Positions 10,292 to 27,146 of a DNA stretch of 42,932 nucleotides are shown piece after piece; position 1 is the first letter of the stretch; every line of letters begins with the position of its first letter. The notes under the pieces were generated by a model that did no database searches, was not told the origin of the DNA, and saw nothing but the letters and a program-made list of their open reading frames with translations. The stretch is taken from NCBI GenBank assembly GCA_021776655.1, contig JAJFFK010000026.1:1-42932 (forward strand), read 5' to 3'. Both the position numbers and the translations under genes were made by a program. This DNA is from Henriciella sp. Its GTDB lineage: Bacteria; Pseudomonadota; Alphaproteobacteria; Caulobacterales; Hyphomonadaceae.

Positions 10292-10309
10292 ATTTGGAAA
10301 TCGCCAAAT
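10292..10309. repeat. Short hairpin in the rutE-like/LLM divergent region
   Basis: ATTTGG (10292-10297) and CCAAAT (10304-10309) form a 6-bp inverted repeat with a 6-bp spacer in the 262-bp region (10235-10496) between two divergent flavoenzyme genes. It is a possible operator. I see nothing else definite in that region. Confidence 0.35.
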
Positions 10310-10496
10310 GTACGAGCCCGCAAGCTTTGCAGCAGGCCGGAAAAATCCGTTAATCGCCAATCGTCTTTGTCTTGGATTGAGGCTTGGCGGCGCATATACG
10401 TGGCGCGAAGACTGCACCTCGTTCGGCGATAATACGACAGTGATTGACCTTGAACATTTCACTTGCCATCACGAGGTCCGAACCGAGGGAGCCATG

Positions 10497-11507
10497 ATGC
10501 AGAAATTTTCACTGCTTGATTTGTCGCCGATACCTGAAGGGAAAACCCCGGCAGACGCGCTGGCAAATACTGTTGCCCTGGCCCGTGCTGCGGAACAGGC
10601 CGGGTATGCGCGTTACTGGCTTGCCGAGCATCACAATATGCCTGGTATCGCGAGCGCCGCAACCGGGATCGTGATTGGCCATGTCGCCGCAGCAACGTCG
10701 ACCATGCGCGTTGGTGCAGGTGGGATCATGCTGCCCAATCACGCGCCTTTGATGGTCGCAGAACAGTTTGGCACGCTCGCAACGCTCTATCCAAACCGAA
10801 TCGATCTAGGTCTGGGCCGCGCACCGGGAACGGACATGGCGACGGCCCGCGCGCTGCGTCGTCACATGGCGTCTGATGATAGCTTTCCGCAAGATGTGCA
10901 GGAGCTGATCGGCTATTTCAAGCAGGCACCAGACGGAGCTGCAGTGCGAGCCATCCCGGGGACAGGCACCGATGTTCCTGTGTGGATCCTCGGCTCCAGT
11001 CTTTATGGCGCGCAGCTCGCTGCATTTCTTGGCCTGCCTTACGCTTTTGCTTCACATTTTGCGCCCGCAATGCTGGAACAGGCCCTATCGATCTATCGCT
11101 CGACCTTCCAACCTTCCGAGACCCTTGAAAAGCCTTATGTGATCGTTGCGGCGGGTGTCTGCGCGGCGGCTACAGATGCTGAGGCCAATTATCTGCGCTC
11201 GTCTCAAATGCTCGCCTTCGCGCGACTACGTACAGGCCATCCTGGCAAATTACCGTTTCCGACCGATGACATTGCGTCTGAGGTCTCTGCCGCCATATTG
11301 GCGCAGATACAGCAAGCGCTGTCATGCTCAGCAGTTGGCTCGGCCGCGACTGTCGAGCAGCAACTGCGCGCCATCGTTGAGACGTATCAGCCAGATGAGC
11401 TTATGGTCACAGGCACAATCCACGATCATGCGGCACGCGTGCGGTCCTTTGAAACTGTCGCAGGTATATTGGCAGAGCTGTGTGAGGTATCAGAAATTTC
11501 TGCATGA
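10497..11507 (+). CDS. Luciferase-like (LLM class) flavin-dependent monooxygenase
   Basis: 336-residue TIM-barrel flavoprotein of the bacterial luciferase-like superfamily, YhbW-like subgroup. Diagnostic blocks: [73 protein letters not shown], and VWILGSS followed by [10 protein letters not shown]. Members act with a reduced-flavin supplier; substrates are mostly unknown. The start at 10497 gives 6 bp spacing from GAGGGA; another ATG is directly before it at 10494, and the ORF is open back to 10308. The divergent RutE-like flavoprotein gene could be a partner, but this is inference. Confidence 0.85.
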
Positions 11508-11536
11508 TCCCTCATCCCTTGAGCTAGGTCCTGACC

Positions 11537-12811
11537 TTAAGTCTCTGTTTTACTGACTGAGCTTTGCGGCATATTCAATCGCGCAAAATCCGCACCGGTC
11601 GGATTCTGAAACAGCCGGAGGTCAAATTCTGGAGCGGCGGCAAACAGATGATCAAAAATATCTGACTGGATGCTTTCATAATCGATCCAGTCCGTGGTTG
11701 TGGTGAACACATAGACTTCGATCGGCAGGCCATTTTCGGTTGGCTCCAGCTGACGCACCAGAAAAGTGAACGCGGTACTGATCTTTGGGTGGGCGCGAAG
11801 GTAGGCTTCGACATAGGCGCGGAATGTGCCGACATTGGTGAGGTGACGGCCATTGACCAGTGTCGACGTGTCGACCTCTGCGGCTGTGTTGTACGCAGAG
11901 AGCTCCATTTTCTTGGCGGCGATATAGTCTGCGATATATTGGATTCGGGCGAACCGGGACAGCATTTCTGCATCGCAGAATTTGACTGAACCAACATCCA
12001 GATGGATGGCCCGCTTGATGCGCCGTCCGCCGGTCTCTTGCATGCCGCGCCAATTCTTGAAGCTGTCATTGATCAGGGACTGGGTTGGAATAGTGGTGAT
12101 TGTCTTGTCGAAGTTTCGGATTTTGACCGTCGTGAGGCCGATCTCGATAATGTCGCCGTCGACTGAGAATTTAGGCATTTCAATCCAGTCACCCACCGTG
12201 ACCATTCTGTTAGCCGAGAGCTGGATGCCAGCGACAAAGCCCAGGATGGGGTCTTTGAAAACCAGCATCAACACGGCTGTCATCGCGCCGAGCCCAGCGA
12301 AGAAGGCGAATGGCGACTGGCCAAGCACAAGCGACAACACGGTGATCGCACCAAAGAAATAGAGCAGCAGTTTGGCAATTTGTACAAAGCTCGTGATCGG
12401 GAAGGTCTTCGAAGTCTCATAGGTCCGGTAGATCGCCACGCCAGCATTCATCAGCGCGTCAATGAAGAGGACGATCATCAAGGTGAGATAGAGCAAGCTT
12501 GCGGTTTCGATCGCCTGTACCGCAATGGGGAAAGGCGCGAAGACGGCTGGCCCGAGCGCATAGATGACGGCAGCCGGTGCGACATGGGACAATCGCGGGA
12601 AGACTTTCATCCGCGTGAATGTGTCGTCACGCTTGGATTCAGAGCGCATGATCGCACGGGCAAGTGTGGCCACAATCACATACCGCATGACAAGGTAGGC
12701 GAAGAATGCCAGCGCCAGGACGACAAGCAATGCGGCCCCAACCGCAACACCGAATGCCAGATCTTCTGACAGGCCAAAGGAGTCAACCAGGTCCGATATC
12801 ATATCCAGCAT
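11537..12811 (-). CDS. MscS-family mechanosensitive channel (YbdG-like)
   Basis: 424 residues. Four to five hydrophobic segments lie in the first 210 residues (LVVLALAFFAYLVMRYVIV, LLYLTLMIVLFIDALM, LLLYFFGAITVLSLVLG, FFAGLGAMTAVLMLVF). The MscS pore/beta-domain signature follows: FKDPILGFVAGIQLS, MVTVGDWIEMP, GDIIEIGLTTVKIRNFDKT and TIPTQSLI. The C-terminal soluble part, with KNWRGMQETGGRRIKR and a long cage region, matches YbdG-type mini-channels. The likely role is release of osmolytes on hypo-osmotic shock. The start at 12811 has GGAG 8 bp upstream; the frame continues to 12913 without support. It converges on the monooxygenase gene and is divergent from the small HTH gene. Confidence 0.9.
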   Translation of the reverse strand: MLDMISDLVDSFGLSEDLAFGVAVGAALLVVLALAFFAYLVMRYVIVATLARAIMRSESKRDDTFTRMKVFPRLSHVAPAAVIYALGPAVFAPFPIAVQAIETASLLYLTLMIVLFIDALMNAGVAIYRTYETSKTFPITSFVQIAKLLLYFFGAITVLSLVLGQSPFAFFAGLGAMTAVLMLVFKDPILGFVAGIQLSANRMVTVGDWIEMPKFSVDGDIIEIGLTTVKIRNFDKTITTIPTQSLINDSFKNWRGMQETGGRRIKRAIHLDVGSVKFCDAEMLSRFARIQYIADYIAAKKMELSAYNTAAEVDTSTLVNGRHLTNVGTFRAYVEAYLRAHPKISTAFTFLVRQLEPTENGLPIEVYVFTTTTDWIDYESIQSDIFDHLFAAAPEFDLRLFQNPTGADFARLNMPQSSVSKTET

Positions 12812-12947
12812 GTGGCGTTCTCCTAAGCGGCAATCTATTAGGCGCCTACATGGTGATATTCGCGTGGAGAAGAAAGTGCCTAGGCTCCATTTTCCCATTT
12901 GATCATTTTGCATATAGGGTCGTCTGGACTGCTGAGGAAAGACCCCA

Positions 12948-13374: not shown

Positions 13375-14922
13375 ATGGTGGACTCGATCTTGGACGCAGT
13401 GAAATCACCTCGGCGATTTTTTGCGGCTTCACATCAGGTATCCGGGATTGAGACAATTGTGTCTGGTGTGGAGCAGGATTTTACTGATTCAAACCAGATA
13501 ATGCTTGCGCCTGTCTATCCTGAATGGCTGGGTGACCGCGCGTTCTCGGCGACGCATGGCGCGCGGTTCAACTATATCGTCGGTGAAATGGCGCGCGGGA
13601 TCGCGACACCGCGAATGGTGGTCGAGGCTGTTCGGGCCGGATGTGTCGGCTTCTATGGTAGCGCTGGGCTGTCACCGCAGGAGATTGAGAGCGGCGTGGA
13701 GGCGATCAAGCGCGACCTGTCACCGGAGCAAATCGCCTGGGGTGCCAACCTGATCCACTCCCCACAGCAGCCCGGATACGAAGCTGCGGTGATCGACCTG
13801 TTCGTCAAACAAGGCGTCAAGCGGGTTTCGGCCTCGGCCTATATGAAATTGTCGCCGGATATTGTGCGCTATACCGCGCTTGGCCTGTCGCGCGGCAAGG
13901 ATGGTGAGATCAAGCGCGATCATCATGTCTTCGCGAAAGTTTCGCGCGCCGAAGTGGCTGAAGCCTTCATGGCCCCGCCACCGCAAAAGCTGCTGAGTGA
14001 ACTGGCTGCGGCGGGCCTGATCAGTGCGGATCAAGCGGAACTGGCGGCCTTGGTGCCGGTTGCGGCTGAAATCACCGCCGAAGCCGATAGTGGCGGCCAT
14101 ACCGATAATCGCCCAGCTGCGCCGCTATTTGCATCGCTAAGTCTGGCGCGCGACCGGGTTGCGGCACGTACGGGCGTCGATGCCAATGCGATCCGGATCG
14201 GTCTGGCGGGCGGGATTGCGACCCCGCATGGCGTGGCAGCAGCGTTCCAGATGGGCGCGGCCTATGTGCTGACCGGATCAATCAACCAGTCAGCCGTTGA
14301 GTCTGGACTGTCCGAGGCGGGGCGGGCATTGCTGTGCAAAGCCGGACCTGCAGATGTGATCATGGCCCCGGCGGCGGATATGTTCGAGCAAGGCGTCGAA
14401 GTCCAAGTGCTCCGACGCGGCACATTGTTTGGGATGCGGGCGAAACGGCTGCACGGGCTATATCGTTCTGGTGCCTCATTTGAGAGCATGAGCCAGAAAG
14501 ACCGTGACTGGCTGGAATCGGTGCTGGGTGAACCGTTTGAGACGGCGTGGTCGCAGACCAAGGCCTTCATCGAACAGGCCAATCCGAAAGAGGCTGAACG
14601 TGCCGCGAACGATGGCAACAAGCGTTTGGCACTGGTGGCGCGGCGCTATCTGTTCATGGGCGCGCAATGGGCCCGCGAGGGGCAAGAAGGCCGTGCGGCC
14701 GACTATCAAATCTGGTGCGGGCCAGCCATGGGCGTGTTCAATGAATGGGTCGCGGGCACACCGCTGGAACCAGGCGAGCGCCGTACCGTTCGCCAGATTG
14801 CCTGGAACCTGATGGAAGGCGCCGCCCGGATCACCCGGGCTGGGCAATTGCGGTCACAAGGGGCTTCAGTTCCAGCAACGGCTTTCAATTACACCCCACA
14901 ATGGTTTAGTGAGGAAGGCTAG
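13375..14922 (+). CDS. pfaD: PfaD-like trans-acting enoyl reductase of a PUFA-type synthase
   Basis: 515-residue FMN-dependent TIM-barrel (nitronate-monooxygenase fold) enoyl reductase of the PfaD family, which reduces the enoyl-ACP intermediates of PUFA synthases in trans. Family blocks in order: APVYPEWLGDRAF, GEMARGIATPRMVVEAVRAG, GFYGSAGLS, GANLIHSPQQPGYE, VSASAYMKLSP, KVSRAEVAEAFMAPPPQ, EADSGGHTDNRP, GGIATPHGVAAAFQMGAAYV, LTGSINQSAVESG, MAPAADMFEQGVEVQVLRRG, and DYQIWCGPAMGVFNEWV. Length is close to the usual 530-550. Ribosome binding site is weak; the ATG directly follows the stop of a four-codon frame. It is the first gene of the cluster, as in the myxobacterial pfa1 arrangement rather than last as in marine gammaproteobacteria. 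Confidence 0.93.
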   Translation: MVDSILDAVKSPRRFFAASHQVSGIETIVSGVEQDFTDSNQIMLAPVYPEWLGDRAFSATHGARFNYIVGEMARGIATPRMVVEAVRAGCVGFYGSAGLSPQEIESGVEAIKRDLSPEQIAWGANLIHSPQQPGYEAAVIDLFVKQGVKRVSASAYMKLSPDIVRYTALGLSRGKDGEIKRDHHVFAKVSRAEVAEAFMAPPPQKLLSELAAAGLISADQAELAALVPVAAEITAEADSGGHTDNRPAAPLFASLSLARDRVAARTGVDANAIRIGLAGGIATPHGVAAAFQMGAAYVLTGSINQSAVESGLSEAGRALLCKAGPADVIMAPAADMFEQGVEVQVLRRGTLFGMRAKRLHGLYRSGASFESMSQKDRDWLESVLGEPFETAWSQTKAFIEQANPKEAERAANDGNKRLALVARRYLFMGAQWAREGQEGRAADYQIWCGPAMGVFNEWVAGTPLEPGERRTVRQIAWNLMEGAARITRAGQLRSQGASVPATAFNYTPQWFSEEG

Positions 14923-14934
14923 GAACTTTTAGAT

Positions 14935-17900
14935 ATGCGTAAAGCGAAATCGAAGAAATCGATTGCCATCGCGGTTGTAGGTATCGGCTCGATCTTTCCG
15001 GGTCGGGGCGATCCGACCGGGTTTTGGCGTGACCTGTTCGAAGGGCGCGATCTGCTCAAAGACGTGCCGCCGTCGCACTGGCTGATTGAAGACTATTACG
15101 ACGCCAATCCGCGTATGCCAGACCGCACATATGGCAAGCGCGGCGGGTTTATTGAGCCGATAGCGTTTGATCCGATGATGTTCGGGATTCCGCCCAAAGC
15201 CATGCAGGCCACCGATACAGCCCAGATGCTGGCTTTGATCGCAGCCAAGATGACGCTTGACGATATTGAACGCGATAGCGCCGGCAAGATCGACAAGACG
15301 CGCACCAGCGTGATCCTCGGTGTGGCATCGGCGACGGAGCTGACCGCACATATGGCGGGGCGGCTGCAGCGTCCGACCTGGGTCAATGCGATGCGCGAGG
15401 CGGGCTTGGCTGAGACCGATGTACAAGACATCGCGGCTCGGATTTCAGATCATTATAGCGACTGGCAGGAAGCAACTTTTCCCGGCCTGCTGGGCAATGT
15501 TGTTGCCGGGCGGATCGCCAACCGGCTGGACCTTGGCGGTAGCAATTATGTGACCGATGCAGCCTGCGCGTCGAGCCTGGCAGCGCTGCAGATCGCGCTA
15601 CATGAGTTACGCTCTGGCGACAGTGATACGGTGCTGGCAGGCGGGGTCGACGCGCTCAACGACATCCTGATGTATATGTGTTTTTCCAAGACGCCCGCCC
15701 TGTCACCGACAGGCGATTGCCGGCCGTTCTCAACCCAAGCGGATGGCACGATGTTGAGCGAAGGCGTCGGCATGCTGGCGCTGCGCCGACTTGCGGATGC
15801 TGAGCGCGACGGCAATACGATCCACGCAGTGATACGCGGGCTTGGCGGCGCGTCTGACGGCAAGGGCACAGCGGTCTATGCACCGCTACCTGCGGGCCAG
15901 GCGAGCGCTTTGAAACGTGCTTATGCGCAAGCTGGTTATGGCCCTGATACGGTGGATCTGGTTGAGGCGCATGGCACCGGAACGATTGCTGGCGACAAGG
16001 CGGAATTAGCTGGGCTACATCAGGTCTTCGGACAGGGCGAAGCCAGTCCGCCATGGTGCGCGCTTGGGTCGGTGAAGTCTCAAATAGGCCATTCCAAGGG
16101 CGCTGCTGGGGCGGCGAGCCTTACCAAAGTGGTCATGGCATTGAGCCGGAAAGTCCTGCCGCCCACCATCAAGGTTGATGAACCAGCTGAGGCGATCAGC
16201 ACCAGCAATGCGTTCTATCTCAACACCGAAGCGCGACCTTGGGTGTCCGCGCCTGGTCGCCCGCGGCGTGGATCGGTCAGCTCGTTCGGGTTTGGTGGCA
16301 GCAATTTCCATGTTGCACTGGAGGAATATACTGGGCCGCGCGCGGTCAAACCGTACCGCACATTGCCGTCTGAATTAGTCCTGTTCTCTGGCGCGTCTGC
16401 AGCAGAACTGGCGGCGGCTATTGAAACCATTGCACCGGCTGAGTTGAGCGATGCCGGGCTGGCAACGACCGCTGAGGCGAGCCATGCAGGCTTTGATGTC
16501 AAGGCAGATGCTCGCGCGTCGATTGTTGCCAGCAGTGTGCAGGATCTACGCGACAAGGCAGCGGCTTTAGCGGCGCAGGTTCGCGGCGGTTCGCTTGGCA
16601 CCAAGCCGTTGAAACCGGGCTGCGCGGCGGCGGTAACTCCAGCCACGCCGGGCAAAATCGCGTTCGTATTTTCGGGCCAGGGCAGCCAATATGTCGATAT
16701 GGGCGCTGATCTGGCTATGGCGTTTCCGGGCGCGCTTGAGGTCTGGAACCAAGCAGCGGCGCATCCGCGTGTTGGGGCGCTTCGGCTCGACCGTCTGGCG
16801 TTCCCGCCCGCCGCCTTTGACCAAGTTGAGTTTAGTCAGAATGTTGAGCGGTTGACCGAAATGCAGCACGCCCAGCCCGCTATCGCTGCAGTGGCCTTGT
16901 CACAGCTGGCTTTGTTGAAAACACTCGGGTTGAAGGCAAAGCTGGCGGGTGGGCACAGTTTCGGCGAGATCATGGCGCTGCATTATGCCGGGTCACTGAC
17001 GCAAGGCCAGGCACTGACCGTGGCAGCCGAACGCGGCGCGCTGATGGCCAAAGCGGCGGAGCAGACCGAAGGCGCGATGATTGCGGTTCAGACCGATGCG
17101 CAGGCGGTTCAGCCGGTGCTGGATAAAGTTGGCAAGGATCTGGTTCTGGCGAATGATAATGGTCTCAGCCAAGTCGTCCTGTCCGGGCCAGTTACAGCCA
17201 TCGAGGCGGCGCTGGAGGCCTGCAAGAGCGCCGGCCTGAAAGCCTATCGTTTGCCAGTCGCAACGGCCTTCCATTCGCCAATTGTTGCAAGCGCAGTTGA
17301 ACCATTTGCGAAAGTGCTGACCCGGCAAGACATGCAAAGCCCGAAGATTGGCGTGTTCGCCAATGCAACGGCCAAACGCTATGGTGGCAAGACGATTGAT
17401 CTACCCGCCAAAGTTGCGTCGCAAATTGTAAAGCCGGTGCGCTTCAGAGAACAGATCGAAGCCATGCACGCCGCCGGTGCCAACGTGTTCGTTGAGATCG
17501 GGCCGGGCGCTGTGGTGACTGGCTTGATTGAGAATATTCTCGGGCAAGGCGACTACCAAACCATCGCGCTCGACAATAAGCGCCATAATGGCGTGACGCA
17601 GTTCCTATCCGGCCTCGGCGCCCTCAGCGTCGCGGGTTTCAAGCTCAATTTGAGCAAGCTGTTCAAGAACATTCCGGCCGAACCGATTGCCCCGCCGCCG
17701 TCAAAACACGCGATCATGATTTCCGGTGCCAATCACGCCAAGCCTTATCCGCCAGCAAATGGTGCATCTGGCCGGGCCAGCCCGAACCGATCCGTACCTT
17801 CAAAAATCTCCCCCCCGACATCCCCTTCTTCTGACAGGACAGTTTCCCCGATGGCCAAGCCAGACCCAAACCCCGTTGCCGTTGCCGCGCCGATCTCAAC

Positions 17901-18792
17901 GCTGCCGCAAACCACCCCGGTCGCAGCCAGTATGACTGAGCGTATATGGCAGGAAATCTCTCAGCGCCATGCTGACTATCTGGCCGTGACTTCAGCCACA
18001 CATACAGAATTCTTGCGCATGATCGGTCAGGTGATGAGCGGTGTGCCGGTTGCGCCACTTGCTGCAACCTTGCCGATGACTGCGCCTGTCGCAGCGCCTA
18101 TCCCGGCCGCAGCGCCAGTCGCAGCGCCAGTCCCGGCCACGCCACCTGTTATGACCAGTCCGGCGCCGATCAGTCCGCCATCAGCCTTGAATGGCTCGAG
18201 CGCGATGAACGGGCACGCGCCTGCGACGCTTATGCCAGTGGCTTCGCCGATTGCTCCGGCGATGGATGCCACCGCACTGGTGCGTGCGATCATTGCCGAG
18301 AAAACCGGCTATCCAGACGATATGCTGGAGCCAGATATGGACCTTGAGGGCGAGCTTGGCGTCGACTCGATCAAGCAGGTTGAAATCCTCTCGACCCTGC
18401 GTGAGCGGGTGCCGGACCTGCCGGAAATTGACCCTGAGCAATTGCTTGAGCTGCGGACGATTGGCGCGATTGCAGCGATGCTTGAGGGCCATCTGGGGGC
18501 AAGTGCACCTGCGCCGATCCCCGCGCCAGTTGCACGCGATCCTGCTCGTCCGGCGGCGAATGGCGGGATCACCGCTGATACTGTGCGTGCGCTGATCGCC
18601 GAGAAGACCGGATACCCAACGGATATGCTCGAGGATGATATGGACCTTGAGGGTGAGCTTGGCGTCGATTCGATCAAGCAGGTTGAAATCCTGTCCGCCC
18701 TACGAGACCAGAACCCATCTCTGCCGGAAGTTGATCCGGAAGTGCTGGCCGAGCTACGCACAATCCGGGCAATTGCTGATTTTTTCAGCTAA
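14935..18792 (+). CDS. pfaA: PfaA-like synthase: KS-MAT-ACP-ACP, without ketoreductase
   Basis: 1285-residue iterative type I synthase. KS at about residues 8-470 with catalytic Cys211 (DAACASSL), His346 (EAHGTGT) and His386 (QIGHSKGAAG). Malonyl acyltransferase at about 570-885 with GQGSQ, active Ser675 in GHSFGE, FHSP and VEIGPGAVVTG. A Pro/Ala-rich linker spans about 905-1115. Two acyl carrier domains follow, each with LGVDSIKQVEIL; the phosphopantetheine serines are Ser1145 and Ser1246, 101 residues apart. The protein then ends. Canonical PfaA continues with a ketoreductase and PKS-type dehydratase; here the ketoreductase is the next gene and the dehydratase is not seen. Two ACPs is fewer than the usual four to nine. 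AGGAA precedes the ATG; gap to pfaD is 12 bp. Confidence 0.92.
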   Translation: MRKAKSKKSIAIAVVGIGSIFPGRGDPTGFWRDLFEGRDLLKDVPPSHWLIEDYYDANPRMPDRTYGKRGGFIEPIAFDPMMFGIPPKAMQATDTAQMLALIAAKMTLDDIERDSAGKIDKTRTSVILGVASATELTAHMAGRLQRPTWVNAMREAGLAETDVQDIAARISDHYSDWQEATFPGLLGNVVAGRIANRLDLGGSNYVTDAACASSLAALQIALHELRSGDSDTVLAGGVDALNDILMYMCFSKTPALSPTGDCRPFSTQADGTMLSEGVGMLALRRLADAERDGNTIHAVIRGLGGASDGKGTAVYAPLPAGQASALKRAYAQAGYGPDTVDLVEAHGTGTIAGDKAELAGLHQVFGQGEASPPWCALGSVKSQIGHSKGAAGAASLTKVVMALSRKVLPPTIKVDEPAEAISTSNAFYLNTEARPWVSAPGRPRRGSVSSFGFGGSNFHVALEEYTGPRAVKPYRTLPSELVLFSGASAAELAAAIETIAPAELSDAGLATTAEASHAGFDVKADARASIVASSVQDLRDKAAALAAQVRGGSLGTKPLKPGCAAAVTPATPGKIAFVFSGQGSQYVDMGADLAMAFPGALEVWNQAAAHPRVGALRLDRLAFPPAAFDQVEFSQNVERLTEMQHAQPAIAAVALSQLALLKTLGLKAKLAGGHSFGEIMALHYAGSLTQGQALTVAAERGALMAKAAEQTEGAMIAVQTDAQAVQPVLDKVGKDLVLANDNGLSQVVLSGPVTAIEAALEACKSAGLKAYRLPVATAFHSPIVASAVEPFAKVLTRQDMQSPKIGVFANATAKRYGGKTIDLPAKVASQIVKPVRFREQIEAMHAAGANVFVEIGPGAVVTGLIENILGQGDYQTIALDNKRHNGVTQFLSGLGALSVAGFKLNLSKLFKNIPAEPIAPPPSKHAIMISGANHAKPYPPANGASGRASPNRSVPSKISPPTSPSSDRTVSPMAKPDPNPVAVAAPISTLPQTTPVAASMTERIWQEISQRHADYLAVTSATHTEFLRMIGQVMSGVPVAPLAATLPMTAPVAAPIPAAAPVAAPVPATPPVMTSPAPISPPSALNGSSAMNGHAPATLMPVASPIAPAMDATALVRAIIAEKTGYPDDMLEPDMDLEGELGVDSIKQVEILSTLRERVPDLPEIDPEQLLELRTIGAIAAMLEGHLGASAPAPIPAPVARDPARPAANGGITADTVRALIAEKTGYPTDMLEDDMDLEGELGVDSIKQVEILSALRDQNPSLPEVDPEVLAELRTIRAIADFFS
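18281..18786 (+). repeat. Tandem ACP-coding repeat
   Basis: The two acyl carrier segments of pfaA are near-identical at DNA level around GAGCTTGGCGTCGA(C/T)TCG, which recurs at 18352 and 18655, exactly 303 bp apart. The repeats diverge at the linker and helix IV. This kind of repeat can expand or contract by recombination; copy number varies between known PUFA synthases. Confidence 0.85.
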
Positions 18793-18800
18793 GGGGCGGC

Positions 18801-20246
18801 GTGGAGGCTGACCCTTCGCCTCGTCCCCTTGTTTCGGATAATCAACCTGCTGGATATCAAAGCGCTGTTCGTGTCATCGGGCTAAGTGCCGCCGCCGCGC
18901 TGCCTGCGCTGGCCGACCTGAGCGGGCTTGCACCAATTGAAATTACTGGGGCAGAAAATGCGCTTGCTGCAGCGCTTGCACAAGCACTGCAGGGCGCGGG
19001 CGTTGCGGCGGAGATTGTCGATCAGCCGAGCGGTGCGGCGCGTACTGTAATCCTCACCGAAGGCTTGCAATCGGGCGATCTGGTTGAGCGCCATTGGTCC
19101 GTGTTGGCGCAAGCCTGTCTGGCACACACTTGTCTGACACACACTGGCGCAGCAAAGATCATTTGCCTGCAAGAGACAGCGACAGATGTTCTGGCGCAGA
19201 CAGGGCTGGCCGGACTGGCGCGGACGTTGCGAAAGGAATGGGCAACGGTTGAGACCGTCTGTTGGGCGTTTGAGACGTGCGATCCGGAATTAGTCGTTAG
19301 AGCCTTGTCGAATGGTCTAGGCGACGCAGCAATTGCCCACGATGGCAGCTGGCGCGCGCAAGCAATTGGCCCAGCGATGTTGCCACCTTCAGTCCAAAGC
19401 GCTGGTCAGGCTGAGGTCTGGCTGGTGACCGGCGGCGCGCGCGGCGTGACGGCGACCTGTACGATTGAGCTGGCGCGGCGCACGGGCGCAACGTTCATTC
19501 TAGCTGGGCGCTCGGCGCAGGCGGCGTGGCCGGACGGCATCGCCAAGACAGCAGATATCAAAGTGCTACGCGCTGCTTTGGCTCAGCAAGCCAAGGCAAA
19601 CGGCGAAAAGATCAAACTGCCTGATTTGGATGGCATGGCCCGCCAAGCGCTGGCCGGGCAAGAGATTGGCGAGACCCTTGCGGCAATCGCAGCAGCGGGC
19701 GGCACGGCGCATTACGCGCAGCTGGATTTGAGTGATGACGCGGCGGTGCGTGCGCAAGTCGCGGATATGCAGGCGAGGTTCGGTCAGATCACCGGGCTGG
19801 TCCATGGCGCCGGGGTCTTGGCCGACCGATTGGCGCTGAAAAAGACGCGCCGTGATCTCGACACGGTATTCGGGCCAAAGGTGTTGGGCTTGCAGAGTGT
19901 GCTTGGCGCGTTGGACGTCTCGGTGCTGTCGCATGTCGCGCTATTTTCATCCGCCTCAGCGGCCTTCGGCAATGTCGGGCAAGCCGACTATGCAATGGCC
20001 AATACGTGCCTGAACCAGATTGCCAACCGCTTGGCAAGCCAAGTGCCGGGCCTTCGCGCCAAGGCGTTCAATTGGGGGCCGTGGGATGGCGGCATGGTCG
20101 ATGCCAATCTCGCCGAATTATTCGCGGCGCAAGGCATCGGTCTGATTGATCGCCGCGACGGCGCGCGGATATTTGCCGACCAGCTTCTGGACGGTGATCC
20201 GGCTGAGATTGAACTTTTGGCTGGTGATCGGTGGACTGTTTCGTGA
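18801..20246 (+). CDS. Free-standing PfaA-type ketoreductase (structural plus catalytic subdomains)
   Basis: 481 residues. The first about 200 residues are the truncated-Rossmann structural subdomain with GLAGLARTLRKEWATVE, characteristic of PfaA ketoreductases. The catalytic part begins at WLVTGGARGVTA (NADPH site, about residue 207), continues through VHGAGVLADRLALKK, and holds Ser384 and Tyr397 in FSSASAAFGNVGQADYAMAN, then FNWGPWDGGMV. It should reduce the 3-ketoacyl-ACPs made by the two KS proteins. It has a GTG start 8 bp after the pfaA stop with AAGGGG upstream, and its end overlaps pfaC by 4 bp (GTGA). In known systems this domain is fused to PfaA, so the gene looks like the split-off C-terminus of pfaA; no dehydratase follows it. 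Confidence 0.88.
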   Translation: MEADPSPRPLVSDNQPAGYQSAVRVIGLSAAAALPALADLSGLAPIEITGAENALAAALAQALQGAGVAAEIVDQPSGAARTVILTEGLQSGDLVERHWSVLAQACLAHTCLTHTGAAKIICLQETATDVLAQTGLAGLARTLRKEWATVETVCWAFETCDPELVVRALSNGLGDAAIAHDGSWRAQAIGPAMLPPSVQSAGQAEVWLVTGGARGVTATCTIELARRTGATFILAGRSAQAAWPDGIAKTADIKVLRAALAQQAKANGEKIKLPDLDGMARQALAGQEIGETLAAIAAAGGTAHYAQLDLSDDAAVRAQVADMQARFGQITGLVHGAGVLADRLALKKTRRDLDTVFGPKVLGLQSVLGALDVSVLSHVALFSSASAAFGNVGQADYAMANTCLNQIANRLASQVPGLRAKAFNWGPWDGGMVDANLAELFAAQGIGLIDRRDGARIFADQLLDGDPAEIELLAGDRWTVS

Positions 20247-23200
20247 CCACATTTGAACCGATTGCAATTGTCGGCGAGAGCTGTGTCTTGCCCGGCGCGC
20301 TGAGCGTTGAAGCGCTATGGGACATGGTCGCGCAGAAACGTGTGGTCATTGACCGCCCGCCCGCCGGGACCTTTGGACTGACGGCAGGCGAAGAGGCGGC
20401 ATCGACCTATGTGTCGGGAATTGTGCAGGGCTTCGACACTGTTTTCGATCCGGGCCGTTACAGGTTGAACGCGATTGACGCCGCAGCGCTTGATCCGGTT
20501 TGTGCGTGGCCGCTACATGCCGCGATTCAGGCCTGGACGCAGGCCGGTTCACCGAACATAGCCACCAAGGATCGCGGCGGTGTCTTTGTCGCCAATCTAT
20601 CCTATCCGAGCCGAGGCCATGGCGCCTATGCCGCCGACCTTTGGCGCGGCAGCGTGCCTGAATTGTCGCCGATGCAAGCTTTCAGTTCGGCTTTGCCAGC
20701 GCAGTTGATTGCCGAAGCGCTAGGTGTGACCGGTCCGGCCTTTGCGCTCGATGCGGCCTGTGCCTCGTCGCTCTATGCGGTTGAGATTGCCTGCCGCAAG
20801 CTACAGACGCGCCAGCTTGACTGCGCTGTGGTGGCGGCGGTGAATGCCGCCGATAATCTGATCCTGCACATTGGGTTTGAGGCGCTGAAGGCGCTGAGCC
20901 CGACCGGGCAATCGCGGCCCTTTGTACAGGGCGCTGATGGCCTGGTGCCGTCCGAAGGGGCGGTTGCGATTGTCCTGAAACGGTTGAGCGATGTTGAGGA
21001 TGGCGAAGTTGTGCACGGCGTCATTCGCGCGGTTGGCCTGTCAAATGATGGTCGGCGCAAAGGGCTTCTGGCCCCGGATGCGACCGGCCAGTCAGCAGCG
21101 ATGCGGCGGGCTTGGACGGCGGCGGACCTCGCCCCTGAAACGCTCGATTTCCTTGAATGCCACGCCACCGGAACCCCGACCGGGGACAGCGTTGAGATAA
21201 GTGCCTCGGCTGAGGTCTTTGCCAAGGCTGACCACCTGCCGGTTGGGTCGCTGAAAGCCAATACCGGGCATCTGATAACCGTGGCCGGGCTGGCCAGTCT
21301 GCTGAAACTGACCCGTGCAATGGCGCACGAAACTTTACCACCCATGCCGCTTTCGGGACCCGCAATTCGCGCGTTCGACGGCACCGCTCTGGCACCGCAA
21401 GTCGCAGCGCAACCATGGCGCACGCAGGACCATCCGCGCCGCGCCGCAATCAGCAATTTCGGCTTTGGTGGCAATAATGCGCATCTGATTCTGGAGCAAT
21501 ATCAGGTGACTAGCGGAGCCGTACCCGTAACGACTGTGCCGGAACAGAGCCCCGATGAGATCGTGATTTGCGGGATTGGTCTTCTCGCGGGGCAGGATCG
21601 AGGTTGCCACGCCGTGCTGCGCCGTCTGATGAACCAGCCCTTGCGCGCGTCAGGACCGTGCACACAGATCGGCGCTGACGCGCTGCTGGCACGAACCCCG
21701 CCAAATGATTTGACCGAGGCCGAGCCGCAACAGTTGGCAATCATGGCGACGGTCGATGAAGCTTTGGACGGGCTGGCACTGCCGGACCTGGACCGTTGCG
21801 GGGTCTATGTCGGCATGGCTTGCGCGGCAGACAGTGCGCGCTGGCTCCTGAGCGCGCGGCTGGCCAGGCAATTGGGACTGCAATCGGGATCGGCAGGTTT
21901 GGCCAAAGCTCAGACAGATGTCGCCCCGGTGCTGACCTCCGCTGCGGTGCTTGGCGCGATGGCGAATATGACCGCGAACCGAGTGACTTATGCGCGTGAT
22001 TTTCGGGGCTTGGGGTTTTCGGTTTCGGGCGGGGCGGCGTCTGGATTGGCGGCGTTGGAGCTGGCTTGCGATGGCTTGAAGGCCGGGGTTTTGGACATGG
22101 CGATTGCGGCTGTGGCTGATTTCGCGAGCGAGCCCGTGCGCGCGAATGCGCTGCAGCGACTGGGGATTTCAGACGTTCCGGGAGATCAGTCGGCGGCGCT
22201 GGTGCTGAAACGGCGTAGCGACGCTGAGGCGGCGGGCGACCCGATATATGGGGTGGTTTCAGATCTGGTTTGGGGCGACGCAGAAGCGGTGCAAACCGGT
22301 GCTGGGCCGGTGCGGGAGGCGTATGGAACAGCCCCGGCAGCGACCGTGCTGGTTGATCTGGCGGTGCAAGCGCTTTTGGCGGCGCATGGCCAGCGTCTGG
22401 GTGAGATCGGCGCGGTGCCGGACCTCAGCGGCAAGAGCGGAAAAGCGACCAGGATTAGTGCGCCGCGCGGGCCGTTGAACCAAGCCGGATCGGTGAAGTT
22501 CAAACCGGCCAAGCCGTTAATCATCGGCGACCCGCTGCGCCCGTCGCCGCATATGTTCTGGGCAACGGCAAAAACCAAGGCCTTGCTCGCGGCGAAAATT
22601 ACGGACGCCAAGACTGGCGGACGGGGCAATTGCCGTCTCGCTGTACTTGGCAAGGATCAGGCCGAGCTGGCAGCGCGACTTGAAGTCGCCCAAGCCGCGC
22701 TCGAAGAGGATGAAACACCGCACGGGCCGGGCATCCACTATGGCGAGGGCAAGGCGCAGGGCGAGATGGCCTTCTTGTTCACTGGCTCGGCGGCGGTTTA
22801 TCCGCGCATGGCGCGCGGATTGCTGATGGCGTTTCCGGAACTGGCTAAAGGCTTGTCAAAACTTGGCAAGGCGGATGATATCGCGCCGCTATTGTCACGG
22901 TCATCCTTGTCCGAGTTTGAACAATTATGCGCTGGAACGCTGGTCAGTCAGGCTCATGCGATCTTGTTGAAGGACTTGCTTGGGCTGAAACCGGACGCGG
23001 CGATAGGGCTGTCTCTGGGCGAGAGTAACGCACTGTTTGCGTTCGGGTTCTGGCATGATCCCGGCGCGTTGCTTGACGAGATTTCCGACGCCGCGATGTA
23101 TGAGCGCCATATTGGCGGGGCGTTTGAAACCGCCGCGCAGGCCTGGGGCCCAAATGTCCCGAGTGATTGGTCAAACTGGCGGGTGCAGGCCCCGGTCAAG

Positions 23201-26200
23201 GACGTAAAAGCCTTGCTGAAAAGCCATGCTGGGGCAGAGATTACGATCATCTATAGCGACACAGATTGCATGATTGGTGGCCCGGCCCCGGCCTGCCGGG
23301 CGCTATGTGACACCCTCGGCAAGGGGGCTGGCACAAAGATGAACCAGCACCTGATCGTCCATGCCAAGGCGATGCAACCGTTCGCCGAGACATGGCGCAG
23401 GTTGCATACGCGCAAGATCTACAAAGGCAGCGACGTGCGGCTGTACGCCAATGCGATCAATGCCGCCTACGAGCCAACCAGCGAAGTGGTGGCCGACATG
23501 CTGACGCGCCAAGCGGTGGGCACGGTCGATTTTCCCGCGACGATACGCCAAGCCTGGGATGACGGCGTGCGCACGTTCGTTGAGCTTGGGCCGCGCGATA
23601 CGCTGACCCGCAGTCTGGCGTCGATATTGCGCGACAAGCCGTTTACCGCCGTCACATCCGACCGGATTGAGACCTCTGATCTCGGCCAAATCGCCGAGCT
23701 GTCGGCGGTGGTGTTTGCAGATGGCCGGGCTTGCAAGATCGCGCTTGTGGCCAAGCGTCTGGACGCGGCCCGGCGCACTGTGCGGCCACATTCAAAAGCA
23801 AAGAGTGCGGTGCGGCCGGTGCCATATCCGATGCCGAAACTGCCAGCGCCTGTGTGCGGCGCAACCATGCCGCGTGCGCCGGACTTGCCCGCGCCCGTCT
23901 ATGCCAAATCCGAGCCGGAGGTGCCGAATTTCGATCCGGTGACATTCCCTCACCCGCCGGGTTATGAGGCCCCGCCGGTGCGCAAGGTCAATTCAGGTCA
24001 TGAAGCACTACCCGTGCGTATGCCGACCGGGCCAAGCTGGGACCGCGCGGCGATTGAGGCCTCAACACGCGGCTTGATGTCTGACTTGTTCGGGCCTCAG
24101 TTCAAAGCGCAAGACATGTATGCGCGGCAAGTTCGTTTGCCTGCCGATCCATTGTTGCTGGTCGATCGGATCACCGGGATTGAGGCGCAGGCGCAGACCA
24201 ATGGCCCCGGCGTGATCTGGACCGAGACGGACTTGGAGGCGCAAGATTGGTCGATGCATGATGGCCGCATTCGCCCCGGCTTGTTGATTGAGAGCGGACA
24301 GGCAGACCTGACCCTGATCGCGTGGATGGGCGCTGACCTGTTAAACCAGAGCGAGCGGGTCTACCGCCTGCTCGGTTGTGAGATCACGTTTCATGCAGGC
24401 GGCTTGCCGGGGCCGGGTGAGACACTGAAATTCCAGATCGAGATAACTGGCCATGCGACGCTGGCGGGCGTGCGGATGTTCTTCTTCCAATATGATTGCA
24501 CAGTTGGCGGGCGACTCGTGTTCTCGGTACGCAATGGGCAGGCCGGGTTCTTTACCGACAAGGAATTGGCCAGCGGCAAAGGTGTGGTCTGGGACGCCGC
24601 CAAGGACGCTGCGCCGACAGCTGAGCCAGCGCCGTTCACGGCTGAACTGGCAAGTCAGAAACGGGCCTTCAGCGCGGGCGATCTGGCGCAGTTCAGGGCA
24701 GGCGATGCGCTTGGCTGTTTCGGCGCGGGGTTTGAAATGTGCGCGGCGCAATCACGCCCGACGCATTTGCCAGATGGCAAGCTGGCTCTGTTTGACGAGG
24801 TGACGGACTTTGATCCGACCGGAGGGCCATGGCGCCGTGGCTATTTGAAAGCGCGCGCCAGTGTACCGCAAGACATGTGGTTCTATACCGGCCATTTCCA
24901 CAATGACCCGTGCATGCCCGGCACCCTGATGGCCGAAGCCGCCGTGCAGACGCTGGAATTCTACGCGGCTGCGATTGGTCTGACGATTGATCGTGACGGC
25001 TATATTTTCGAGCCGATGCCGGGACATATGACGCAATTTGTCTGCCGGGGCCAAGTCATCCCTGACGCGGACCACGACGTCACTTATGAGGTGTTTATCG
25101 ACGAGATTGTCGATGGTGATGCACCGATCCTGTATGCCTCTCTGTTGGCGCGCCGGGATGGCCATAAAGTCTTCCATTGTCCGCGTTTTGGCGTGCGGTT
25201 GCGGCCAAATTGGCCTGCTGCGCGAGTGTCTGATGCGCCGCTGAGGATCGGGCCGAACCAGGAAAGCCGGGGCGATTATGCCGCTTTGCTTGACTGCGCC
25301 AATGGTGCGCCGTCAGCCGCTTTTGGCAAGATGTACGCACCATTCGACCGCGCCGACCGGGTGCCGCGCCTGCCGCAACCGCCTTATCACATGATGACAC
25401 GCGTGCTTGAGGTCTCGACCCGCCCGGCCCAGCCGGAAGTCGGCGCGCGCGTGGTGGCGCAATATGATGTCGCGCCAGACGCGTGGTATTTCGACGACAA
25501 TCGCAATGGCACGATGCCATTTGCGGTCTTGTCGGAAGTCGCGTTGCAGCCATGCGGCTGGCTTGCCAGTCATGGCGGGTTTGCGGTGTCGGGCGGTTTG
25601 CGGTTCCGCAATCTCGAGGGCGACGGGTATTTGCACGCCGAAGTGCTGCGCGATGCCGGGACACTGACGATTGAGACCACGTTGAGCAGTTTCTCGCAGG
25701 TTGGGCCGATGACGATTGTTTCGTTTGAGCTGCAGGTGCGGTTTGCCGATGGTCAGCCTGTGCTTGATCTGAAGACGCAGTTCGGGTTCTTCCCGGCCGC
25801 CGCATTGATGCGTCAAGCCGGTCTGCCTGCCAAAGCAAACTGGACGGCATTGTTCGATGCGCCCGGCGCGGCTGTGGACACAGACGCGACCGCGCCGCGT
25901 CTGGCGGGTGGCCAGCTGAATATGCTCGACGCAGTGGATTTGTTCGATCCAACTGGCGGCGAGGCGGGATTGGGGATTATTCGCGGCCGCCAGGCCGTTG
26001 ATCCGGCGGCCTGGTATTTCAAGGCGCACTTCTATCAAGACCCAGTTCAGCCCGGCTCACTCGGGCTCGACGCATTGGCGCAATTGCTTGGCCATGCAGC
26101 GCTGCTCAAGGGGCTCGATGCGGGCATGGCTCAGCCACATGTGGAGACGATTGCCACTGATGCGCCGATCAAGTGGAGCTATCGCGGCGAGATTACGCCG

Positions 26201-26353
26201 AACCGCAAAGAGGTCGTGACGGTGATCGAAATAACCGCGATTGAGGCGCGCGGAGCGGGGGTCCTGATCACCGCGAATGGCAGCCTGTGGCGTGATGGCT
26301 TGCGGGTCTATGAAGTCAAGCCGATGTGCGTGGCGGTGGTGGATCGCGGGTGA
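20243..26353 (+). CDS. pfaC: PfaC-like megasynthase: KS-CLF-AT-DH-DH
   Basis: 2036 residues from the GTG at 20243 (GTGA overlap with the ketoreductase; GGTGGA 7 bp upstream; a GTG at 20231 is the alternative). KS, about 1-420: Cys173 (DAACASSL), His307 (CHATGTPTGD), His343 (NTGHL). Chain-length factor, about 430-760: a KS-like domain whose active Cys is replaced by Ala (about residue 598, VSGGAASGLAALELA). Acyltransferase, about 840-1150, PfaB-like: FLFTGSAAVYPRMARGLL, Ser924 in GLSLGES, IVHAKAMQPF, VELGPRDTLTRSL. Two FabA-like double hot-dog dehydratases follow: DH1 with IESGQADL (about 1350) and His1551 in HFHNDPCMPG; DH2 with His1929 in HFYQDPVQPG. The order matches myxobacterial Pfa3, but no C-terminal AGPAT is present. 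Confidence 0.92.
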   Translation: MTTFEPIAIVGESCVLPGALSVEALWDMVAQKRVVIDRPPAGTFGLTAGEEAASTYVSGIVQGFDTVFDPGRYRLNAIDAAALDPVCAWPLHAAIQAWTQAGSPNIATKDRGGVFVANLSYPSRGHGAYAADLWRGSVPELSPMQAFSSALPAQLIAEALGVTGPAFALDAACASSLYAVEIACRKLQTRQLDCAVVAAVNAADNLILHIGFEALKALSPTGQSRPFVQGADGLVPSEGAVAIVLKRLSDVEDGEVVHGVIRAVGLSNDGRRKGLLAPDATGQSAAMRRAWTAADLAPETLDFLECHATGTPTGDSVEISASAEVFAKADHLPVGSLKANTGHLITVAGLASLLKLTRAMAHETLPPMPLSGPAIRAFDGTALAPQVAAQPWRTQDHPRRAAISNFGFGGNNAHLILEQYQVTSGAVPVTTVPEQSPDEIVICGIGLLAGQDRGCHAVLRRLMNQPLRASGPCTQIGADALLARTPPNDLTEAEPQQLAIMATVDEALDGLALPDLDRCGVYVGMACAADSARWLLSARLARQLGLQSGSAGLAKAQTDVAPVLTSAAVLGAMANMTANRVTYARDFRGLGFSVSGGAASGLAALELACDGLKAGVLDMAIAAVADFASEPVRANALQRLGISDVPGDQSAALVLKRRSDAEAAGDPIYGVVSDLVWGDAEAVQTGAGPVREAYGTAPAATVLVDLAVQALLAAHGQRLGEIGAVPDLSGKSGKATRISAPRGPLNQAGSVKFKPAKPLIIGDPLRPSPHMFWATAKTKALLAAKITDAKTGGRGNCRLAVLGKDQAELAARLEVAQAALEEDETPHGPGIHYGEGKAQGEMAFLFTGSAAVYPRMARGLLMAFPELAKGLSKLGKADDIAPLLSRSSLSEFEQLCAGTLVSQAHAILLKDLLGLKPDAAIGLSLGESNALFAFGFWHDPGALLDEISDAAMYERHIGGAFETAAQAWGPNVPSDWSNWRVQAPVKDVKALLKSHAGAEITIIYSDTDCMIGGPAPACRALCDTLGKGAGTKMNQHLIVHAKAMQPFAETWRRLHTRKIYKGSDVRLYANAINAAYEPTSEVVADMLTRQAVGTVDFPATIRQAWDDGVRTFVELGPRDTLTRSLASILRDKPFTAVTSDRIETSDLGQIAELSAVVFADGRACKIALVAKRLDAARRTVRPHSKAKSAVRPVPYPMPKLPAPVCGATMPRAPDLPAPVYAKSEPEVPNFDPVTFPHPPGYEAPPVRKVNSGHEALPVRMPTGPSWDRAAIEASTRGLMSDLFGPQFKAQDMYARQVRLPADPLLLVDRITGIEAQAQTNGPGVIWTETDLEAQDWSMHDGRIRPGLLIESGQADLTLIAWMGADLLNQSERVYRLLGCEITFHAGGLPGPGETLKFQIEITGHATLAGVRMFFFQYDCTVGGRLVFSVRNGQAGFFTDKELASGKGVVWDAAKDAAPTAEPAPFTAELASQKRAFSAGDLAQFRAGDALGCFGAGFEMCAAQSRPTHLPDGKLALFDEVTDFDPTGGPWRRGYLKARASVPQDMWFYTGHFHNDPCMPGTLMAEAAVQTLEFYAAAIGLTIDRDGYIFEPMPGHMTQFVCRGQVIPDADHDVTYEVFIDEIVDGDAPILYASLLARRDGHKVFHCPRFGVRLRPNWPAARVSDAPLRIGPNQESRGDYAALLDCANGAPSAAFGKMYAPFDRADRVPRLPQPPYHMMTRVLEVSTRPAQPEVGARVVAQYDVAPDAWYFDDNRNGTMPFAVLSEVALQPCGWLASHGGFAVSGGLRFRNLEGDGYLHAEVLRDAGTLTIETTLSSFSQVGPMTIVSFELQVRFADGQPVLDLKTQFGFFPAAALMRQAGLPAKANWTALFDAPGAAVDTDATAPRLAGGQLNMLDAVDLFDPTGGEAGLGIIRGRQAVDPAAWYFKAHFYQDPVQPGSLGLDALAQLLGHAALLKGLDAGMAQPHVETIATDAPIKWSYRGEITPNRKEVVTVIEITAIEARGAGVLITANGSLWRDGLRVYEVKPMCVAVVDRG

Positions 26354-27005
26354 TTGCGATGGCGGCGGTGATCTCGTCATGACGGGCGGTTTCGATCTGA
26401 TAGCGGGTGCCGTGGGCTTCGAGCGTGAACCGGGACGGGGCAGGGCGCAGGTGCTGATTGCTGATCTGGATCGCTTTGGGACCCGCACGAAACCCTTGTC
26501 CGGTGGCTTTCAGCACCGCTTCCTTGATCGTCCACAGGCGGAAGAATCCGATCAGGTCTGGCTCTGCGGACAGGAAGGCGGCGCGCTCAGCCTCGTCGCA
26601 AATCATGCTCAGCATCGGCTGCCAGTCAAGCGGCCGGACGCGTTCAATGTCGAGGCCGATAGCGCGGTCCTCGGCGAGCGCCAGCGCGCTCCATCCCTCA
26701 CTGTGCGAGGTCGAAAGCGACAGCGATGGAAAGTCCGGCAGGAAAGGTTGGCCTTCGGGGTGATAGTCGATGGCAAGGCCGGTTGGGGTGACGTCCAGAA
26801 GGTCCGCGAGATAGACGCGGCGGGCAGCGAACTCTGCCCGGCGTAAGTGTCTGGCTTGCTGCTGGGCCAGTCGATCCGTACGCGCACGCTCTTCGGGAGG
26901 GAGCGCAATGGCTGAACCGGATAGCGTATGGTTGTTCCAGAGCAGGCAGGCTTCGCGCGGGTCAGCGTTCAACCTGTTTTCGAATAGAGTTACGATACTG
27001 CGCAT
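26316..27005 (-). CDS. Sfp-type 4'-phosphopantetheinyl transferase
   Basis: 229 residues. Transfers phosphopantetheine from CoA to the serines of carrier domains; here most likely the two ACPs of PfaA, in the role of PfaE. Motifs: SLSTSHSEGWSALALAED, GLDIERVRPLDW (magnesium-binding Asp and Glu) and FFRLWTIKEAVLKATGQGF (W-x-x-K-E-A-x-x-K). The start at 27005 has AGAGGG upstream; a GTG at 27038 is less likely. The gene converges on pfaC and overlaps its end by 38 bp, so it has its own promoter from the side of tRNA-Ser. I see nothing definite in 27039-27146 besides that presumed promoter. Confidence 0.88.
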   Translation of the reverse strand: MRSIVTLFENRLNADPREACLLWNNHTLSGSAIALPPEERARTDRLAQQQARHLRRAEFAARRVYLADLLDVTPTGLAIDYHPEGQPFLPDFPSLSLSTSHSEGWSALALAEDRAIGLDIERVRPLDWQPMLSMICDEAERAAFLSAEPDLIGFFRLWTIKEAVLKATGQGFRAGPKAIQISNQHLRPAPSRFTLEAHGTRYQIETARHDEITAAIAITRDPPPPRTSA

Positions 27006-27146
27006 GGCTGCTGCCCTCTGATGCGACCCCGTCGCCACTATCCTTAAGCCGATAGGTCGGCAGTGTCAGAGTAAAAATTTAATGACTTGAAAAAGTGCTT
27101 CGCAAGGCGATCAGAGCCAAGATATACCTGCAAAAACAAAACTGTA

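Follow-up and report, generated by a model that had tools for sequence, protein, structure and literature searches.

Polyunsaturated fatty acid (PUFA) synthases, the products of the pfa genes, are described as having three dehydratase (DH) domains, of which one is of the polyketide synthase (PKS) type (DHPKS or PS-DH) and two are of the FabA type (PMC9702510). How these enzymes choose between a double bond and saturation is unsettled; in the accessible text of that source, which cites Hayashi 2019b, saturation is assigned to DHPKS followed by enoyl reduction and the cis double bond to DHFabA. Two of the cluster types described by Shulse and Allen 2011 (PMC3098273) combine a split pfaA with a fused pfaBC. 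Type D consists of pfaA1 [ketosynthase (KS)-acyltransferase (AT)-five acyl carrier proteins (ACP5)], pfaA2 [ketoreductase (KR)] and pfaBC [KS-chain length factor (CLF)-AT-DH2], and Type H comes from Agrobacterium vitis. Here we analysed a DNA stretch of 42,932 nucleotides (the window), which makes up all of contig C19 in a genome of 2.97 Mb and 47 contigs, 100 percent complete and placed in the genus Henriciella of the family Hyphomonadaceae. It carries four pfa genes in the layout enoyl reductase (ER)/KS-malonyl acyltransferase (MAT)-ACP-ACP/KR/KS-CLF-AT-DH-DH, together with a phosphopantetheinyl transferase (PPTase) gene. The initial annotation had described this locus as an alphaproteobacterial secondary-lipid cluster resembling those of PUFA synthases, and its domains and intact catalytic residues bear this out. 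The odd feature of the cluster, which that annotation did not mention, is the loss of the PKS-type dehydratase: this domain, normally located after KR or DH2, is absent from the Pfa proteins of the window.

The reading frames and domains place the five genes at the positions and on the strands given by the initial annotation. The first gene, pfaD (13375-14922, + strand, 515 aa), encodes a stand-alone ER that scored 525 bits against the PfaD family TIGR02814 (NCBIfam cut-off 449), and the solved structures related to its product include PfaD 6lkc and 4yx6. The next gene, pfaA1 (14935-18792, +, 1285 aa), encodes KS-MAT-ACP-ACP, as Pfam and NCBIfam recognised a KS, an acyl transferase and two phosphopantetheine (PP)-binding stretches, and the catalytic residues align. 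Two GVDSI motifs were present as well, and the protein thus has the tandem ACPs of Pfa synthases. In the product of pfaA2 (18801-20246, +, 481 aa from the first GTG) KR was the sole domain found; in the records of its relatives P0001 and P0002 the start lies some 44 aa downstream of that GTG. The fourth gene, pfaBC (20231-26353, +, 2040 aa), encodes KS-CLF-AT-DH1-DH2, with two ketoacyl-synthase stretches, of which the second is presumably the CLF, and a pair of FabA-type stretches (DH1-DH2, 24041-26350, +). Pfam detected no acyltransferase domain in this protein; the AT was visible in a match of residues 840-1124 to the PfaB family (TIGR02816), which at 83 bits does not reach the cut-off of 144, and by comparison with full-length relatives. 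The fifth gene encodes an Sfp-type PPTase of the ACPS superfamily (26316-27038, -, PF01648 6.3e-16), which overlaps pfaBC tail to tail by 38 bp. The convergent Sfp-type assignment of the initial annotation therefore stands, but its start at 27005 is an internal ATG, as the frame opens at 27038 with GTG. Because the four pfa genes are separated by 12 bp (pfaD/pfaA1) and 8 bp (pfaA1/pfaA2) and then overlap by 16 bp (pfaA2/pfaBC), the spacing suggests that they form one operon.

The missing domain was evaluated by counting the residues that follow KR and DH2 up to the protein end. In the window, PfaA2 stops 11 aa past KR and PfaBC ends with DH2 itself (0 aa); neither carries PS-DH, and PfaBC has no acylglycerol-phosphate acyltransferase (AGPAT) either. 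All 14 Hyphomonas-type clusters, the window and 13 others, showed KR tails of 10-16 aa and DH2 tails of 0-7 aa, and all six Henriciella-type clusters had KR tails of 13-15 aa and DH2 tails of 385-389 aa. Outside the family, at least one tail of at least 270 aa was present in 45 of the 45 rows in which both ends were measured, two of these rows (L146 and L207) being one contig; the whole set had 49 rows, of which four were unmeasurable, L130 and L131 for want of a visible KR and L132 and L144 for want of a DH2 tail. Of 41 long KR tails, 27 were submitted to domain search and all 27 matched PS-DH. Among the long DH2 tails, 24 of 26 were submitted (L132 and L136 omitted), and 13 matched PS-DH and 15 an AGPAT-type acyltransferase. 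The Henriciella DH2 tails align with the other long DH2 tails in profile A5, and their Pfam PS-DH matches are weak (L097, E 0.013) or nil (L101).

A genome-wide Pfam PS-DH scan (PF14765) was rejected as proof of absence, as it recovered only two of nine genomes with a Pfa PS-DH or PS-DH-like tail, and profile A5 was added. Searching 32 genomes with A5 detected all eight Henriciella genomes, G393 and G730 at E < 1e-130, and a Pfa-type copy in none of the 20 Hyphomonas-type genomes (14 read in detail and six known by frame lengths). Weak A5 matches in G523 (2.8e-6) and G471 (6.6e-8) lie in frames of 2117 and 2140 aa, which are also marked by PF14765. Several results speak against extending the loss to whole genomes. 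Profile A5 missed G533 and G588, in which PS-DH follows KR; its negatives hence cover the DH2-linked form only, and a free-standing KR-linked form may exist. The PF14765 scan of 29 genomes gave matches in a total of seven of the 20 Hyphomonas-type genomes, and the frames concerned all measured 2092-2535 aa. In the genome of the window itself PF14765 marks one PS-DH, in a separate type I PKS frame on contig C16. Supply of PS-DH in trans from type I PKSs is therefore conceivable. Since the negatives of the PF14765 scan mean little and those of A5 speak for one form, our firm claim of DHPKS absence is limited to the Pfa proteins themselves. On contig C16, at about 26.9-31.8 kb (G000:C16; L003, L241), the KS, KR and PS-DH matches of this second type I PKS fall within one frame of 2109 aa.

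The general catalytic roles of the KS, MAT, KR, DH and AT motifs are taken to be those of their families. As judged from aligned columns over 29 clusters, both KS domains of the window retain Cys-His-His, MAT retains GHS and AFHS, KR retains Tyr and Ser, and DH1 and DH2 each retain His and an acidic residue. In the CLF, the position usually occupied by Cys carries another residue. The GxSxGE motif of the AT is kept in 27 aligned rows, and the AT is devoid of the Gln and Arg by which MATs select malonyl. PfaB is likewise described as a terminal long-chain acyltransferase devoid of the Gln-Arg pair (PMC12895367), so the AT of PfaBC probably releases or transfers the finished chain. Its catalytic Ser is preceded by Leu, where bacterial PfaB has Tyr; Leu is reported at this position for MATs and certain eukaryotic homologues in the accessible text of the same source.

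At the catalytic-acid position of DH2 we found Asp in all 14 Hyphomonas-type clusters and in four of the six Henriciella-type clusters, the other two having Glu. Outside Hyphomonadaceae the position was Glu in all 45 rows in which the motif was located (no motif in L132). The FabA of E. coli uses Asp at this position and FabZ uses Glu. As most Henriciella-type clusters have Asp too, the Asp does not track the loss of DHPKS exactly. These residues bear on the idea that the DHPKS function is kept in trans, by a housekeeping dehydratase or another PKS, and that the product is that of the myxobacterial type. The Glu-to-Asp difference suggests that the FabA-type domains themselves have changed, which argues against this idea, yet the four Henriciella-type clusters share Asp while keeping the PS-DH-like tail. 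The PKS frame on C16 is in its favour, as are two genes of the window contig, one belonging to the FabA family and the other enoyl-reductase-like, but 13 of the 20 Hyphomonas-type genomes gave no PF14765 match at all in that scan of weak sensitivity. Overall we regard maintenance of the function in trans as improbable.

We consider it likely that the cluster encodes a PUFA-type (Pfa, secondary-lipid) iterative synthase of a Hyphomonas-type subfamily without DHPKS/PS-DH and AGPAT, and its kinship with Pfa-type synthases is well supported. It contains the KS, ACP and KR, at least one of each, as well as the combinations of MAT, AT, CLF, dehydratase/isomerase (DH/I), ER and PPTase by which Shulse and Allen 2011 recognise secondary-lipid synthases. 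Two observations weaken this assignment. The match to the PfaA family TIGR02813 reached 964 bits, which falls short of a formal pass at the cut-off of 1010; it was all the same the best NCBIfam match, and a low score is expected because the PfaA protein is split. In addition, inspection by eye found the P1a motif (EGQP) in the PPTase and neither of the PUFA-type motifs P0 and P1b. According to the available part of PMC3098273, P0 is perhaps not needed for secondary lipids generally, and Types M-T have another P1b motif. The PPTase takes the same convergent position in nine of the 14 Hyphomonas-type clusters, the window counted. In all six Henriciella-type clusters it lies about 550-570 bp away from pfaBC. 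A small gene for a GNAT-like N-acyltransferase was seen by eye between pfaBC and PPTase in one of these loci (L097, 16243-16806) and is absent from the window; it hints that the Henriciella product may be joined to another molecule.

By analogy with related synthases, MAT would load malonyl on the two ACPs after their activation by the PPTase, KS and KS-CLF would carry out condensation, and the separate KR would perform ketoreduction. The two FabA-type DHs would be responsible for every dehydration and any trans-to-cis isomerisation, and PfaD would reduce the enoyl intermediate at steps ending saturated. The PfaB-like AT, having no malonyl-selecting Gln and Arg, would hand over the finished long acyl chain or hydrolyse it off. 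With DHPKS gone, either the FabA-type pair must act in every cycle or another enzyme helps, and the double-bond pattern of the product would be expected to differ from those of eicosapentaenoic acid (EPA) and docosahexaenoic acid (DHA). As the most likely product we regard a long acyl chain, polyunsaturated or partly unsaturated, that goes into membrane lipids; that it is a PUFA of some kind is our guess, with chances slightly better than even. More tentatively, a subfamily extending across Hyphomonas may do without any PKS-type dehydratase, its two FabA-type domains (DH2 with the FabA-like Asp) performing all dehydration and isomerisation and yielding a lipid whose double-bond pattern is unlike that of EPA and DHA, for instance one with more double bonds, with another spacing or of shorter length. 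Hyphomonas neptunium, H. johnsonii, H. beringensis and H. pacifica would be among the species with the DHPKS-lacking subfamily. Such a subfamily amounts to a natural deletion experiment, for which the Henriciella-type clusters with their PS-DH-like domain serve as the control.

It is possible, though in our view rather unlikely, that the product is no PUFA but a long secondary lipid that is mostly saturated, hydroxylated or mono-unsaturated, comparable to those of heterocyst glycolipid and phenolic-lipid synthases, which feeds the unusual glyco- or taurine-lipids of the family. Products of this kind are described for Types F and P (Shulse and Allen 2011, PMC3098273). Judging by cited titles, Hyphomonas jannaschiana is devoid of phospholipids and contains a taurine-amide glycolipid, and its protein P0145 matches pfaBC over the full length. 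Among the literature matches listed, none linked Hyphomonas or Henriciella to PUFA synthesis by title or start of abstract, which also fits such a lipid; this is a weak negative, as subscription journals mostly lie outside the search. Against it, both FabA-type DHs are intact in the window, whereas Type F has no DH/I domains by its published description, and loss of the saturation-linked dehydratase points to more unsaturation rather than less. The words Hyphomonas and docosahexaenoic both occur in the accessible text of PMC7655873. Among the literature matches listed, we found no earlier remark on a DHPKS-less variant.

The layout, which the initial annotation had called unusual, is ordinary for Hyphomonadaceae. 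The PfaBC protein was detected at E 1e-200 or better in 59 of 105 genomes of the family and KR at E 1e-40 or better in 57 of 105, so the cluster is not a chance arrangement. All 57 KR-positive genomes (G012, G691 and G704 being cut by contig ends) showed KR frames of 243-619 aa, none of them PfaA-sized, and the complete layout was seen in all 20 clusters read in detail (window plus 19). A search for the split arrangement did find it elsewhere: the same split occurs outside the class in G730, and loci of Mycobacterium simiae, Paenibacillus, Gemmatimonadetes and Acidobacteria are divided at the same ACP-KR boundary. Given these counts and the description published in 2011, novelty of the layout was rejected; an arrangement thought odd is the standard of one marine bacterial family. 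Split pfaA elsewhere is also mentioned in JACS Au 2026 (PMC13291983), in the accessible text of which the word alphaproteobacteria is absent. In a plasmid collection, 27 records were obtained, seven of them spanning most of the query, and those of Azospirillum, Persicobacter and Streptomyces were compared.

PfaD alone was rejected as a cluster marker, as it also gives matches in Bacillus subtilis and, within the class, next to frames with several KS domains. PfaD homologues were observed in two alphaproteobacterial genomes of 1.5 Mb in a single contig (L041 and L042, from G240 and G330), where we would guess that they are trans-acting reductases of PKSs in reduced symbionts. In two genomes of genus code g283 the KR match reads through one TAG (G663:C15:100385-101707 and G668:C58:1551-2936); L084 from G663 nevertheless shows a KR frame of 451 aa.

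A KS1 tree was built from 49 rows; L137, L139 and L152 were omitted, as was every cluster (including Sorangium L158) for which no KS1 piece was found or the piece did not exceed 380 aa. All rows of this tree are of Pfa type and the trees contain no ordinary PKS or FabF as outgroup, which weakens them as evidence for the synthase assignment. Hyphomonadaceae formed one clade of 20 rows (support 100/99), which comprised 14 Hyphomonas-type rows (100/99) and a separate clade of six Henriciella-type rows (100/99). The window fell inside the Hyphomonas-type clade, with G663 as its sister (96/90). The rows of marine type A/B layout formed a separate branch together with Persicobacter and Streptomyces rows; thus the window KS did not group with the clusters of EPA/DHA layout, and the refuting observation named in the initial annotation, a grouping with a characterised EPA/DHA family that already has the split arrangement, was not seen. 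The DH1-DH2 tree agreed with the KS1 tree; it held 61 rows, was made by a quick method and omitted six named loci as well as rows with short or missing pieces. In this tree the sister of Hyphomonadaceae was the uncultured Rhizobiaceae-group contig L192 (97 SH-aLRT), and a group of 30 rows (100) included the family, L192, Azospirillum, G393, G730, some mycobacteria and others. As both trees place the window on the Hyphomonas side, its cluster is not that of other Henriciella.

No cluster occurs in the 11 genomes of the genus that are closest by MsrA (72-77 percent), and the Henriciella-type cluster is present in 14 of the 17 that are further removed (61-68 percent). The Hyphomonas side of the family is the probable source of the window copy, or has it in common with the window; transfer from that side would fit, and so would two old subtypes followed by differential loss. 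Two points detract from this account of origin: the donor account is based on gene trees and not on a formal species tree, and an empty-site comparison around msrA in nine relatives was uninformative because the left flank is not syntenic. GC excess was rejected as a sign of transfer, since in all 24 loci compared the cluster was richer in GC than the flanking DNA.

The same grouping of KS with Hyphomonas, and the fact that the contig is the window and nothing more, could also mean that the contig is a misbinned one from Hyphomonas. We find this quite implausible, since the flanks have GC contents of 56.5 and 57.7 percent against 54.8-55.9 percent in four other stretches of the same genome, whereas three stretches from Hyphomonas and a fourth from genus code g283 have 61.1-65.1 percent. 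Moreover, in G020, another genome of the genus, the SH3 and fabA genes lie together at a distance of 8.7-9.4 kb from msrA, a comparison made within the genus. Tetranucleotide correlations separated the alternatives weakly, and FabI homologues were rejected as a genus marker, as the named matches were both Henriciella and Hyphomonas. To the left of the cluster, at 10308-12913 of the window, lie genes for a luciferase-like monooxygenase and an MscS-type channel; the latter had no match at E 1e-40 in any of the other 28 genomes of the genus and is not usable as a locus anchor.

Compared with the marine EPA/DHA synthases of Types A and B (pfaA-B-C-D-E), which were represented by genomes recognised by layout, the window shares the kinds of activity and the catalytic motifs. 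These types differ in having a separate pfaB, 4-7 ACPs, PS-DH on PfaA, ER last and another KS branch; the pfaA-B-C-D order, separate AT and KS clade that define them were not found in the window. The Persicobacter cluster has a Type D-like layout, with PS-DH after KR and ER last, and its KS groups with the marine types, not with the window. Type D itself (Psychroflexus torquis, arachidonic acid/EPA) shares, by published description, the pfaA1/pfaA2 [KR] split and the fused pfaBC, and carries its five ACPs against two in the window (PMC3098273). Type H agrees with the window in layout by its published description.

The myxobacterial Pfa1-Pfa2-Pfa3 systems of Aetherobacter, Minicystis and Sorangium share with the window the ER gene in first place, the KS-MAT-ACP-KR order and a separate PPTase gene, and those of Aetherobacter and Minicystis also share an AT fused in KS-CLF-AT-DH-DH. 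Pfa2 of these systems is unsplit and has PS-DH at its end, in contrast to the split protein of the window with its short KR tail, and Pfa3 ends in AGPAT, where the window protein ends with DH2 (PMC8436480; Sorangium cellulosum So ce26, L158). The frames, domains and tails therefore agree with the initial annotation as to the myxobacterial gene order, the split second protein, the two ACPs and the missing AGPAT. AGPAT has been reported as a feature unique to terrestrial myxobacteria (PMC8436480, in its accessible text). We observed that it also ends PfaBC in clusters from Azospirillum, mycobacteria, Paenibacillus, Acidobacteriota and further groups (L142, L149, L173, L180, L194 and others), often after a second PS-DH. 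Azospirillum (L149, L152) and G393 (L142) share two ACPs and the ER-first order with the window. PfaA is unsplit in L192, Azospirillum and G393, unlike in the window, and the PfaBC tail consists of PS-DH in L192, of PS-DH plus AGPAT in Azospirillum and G393, and of neither in the window.

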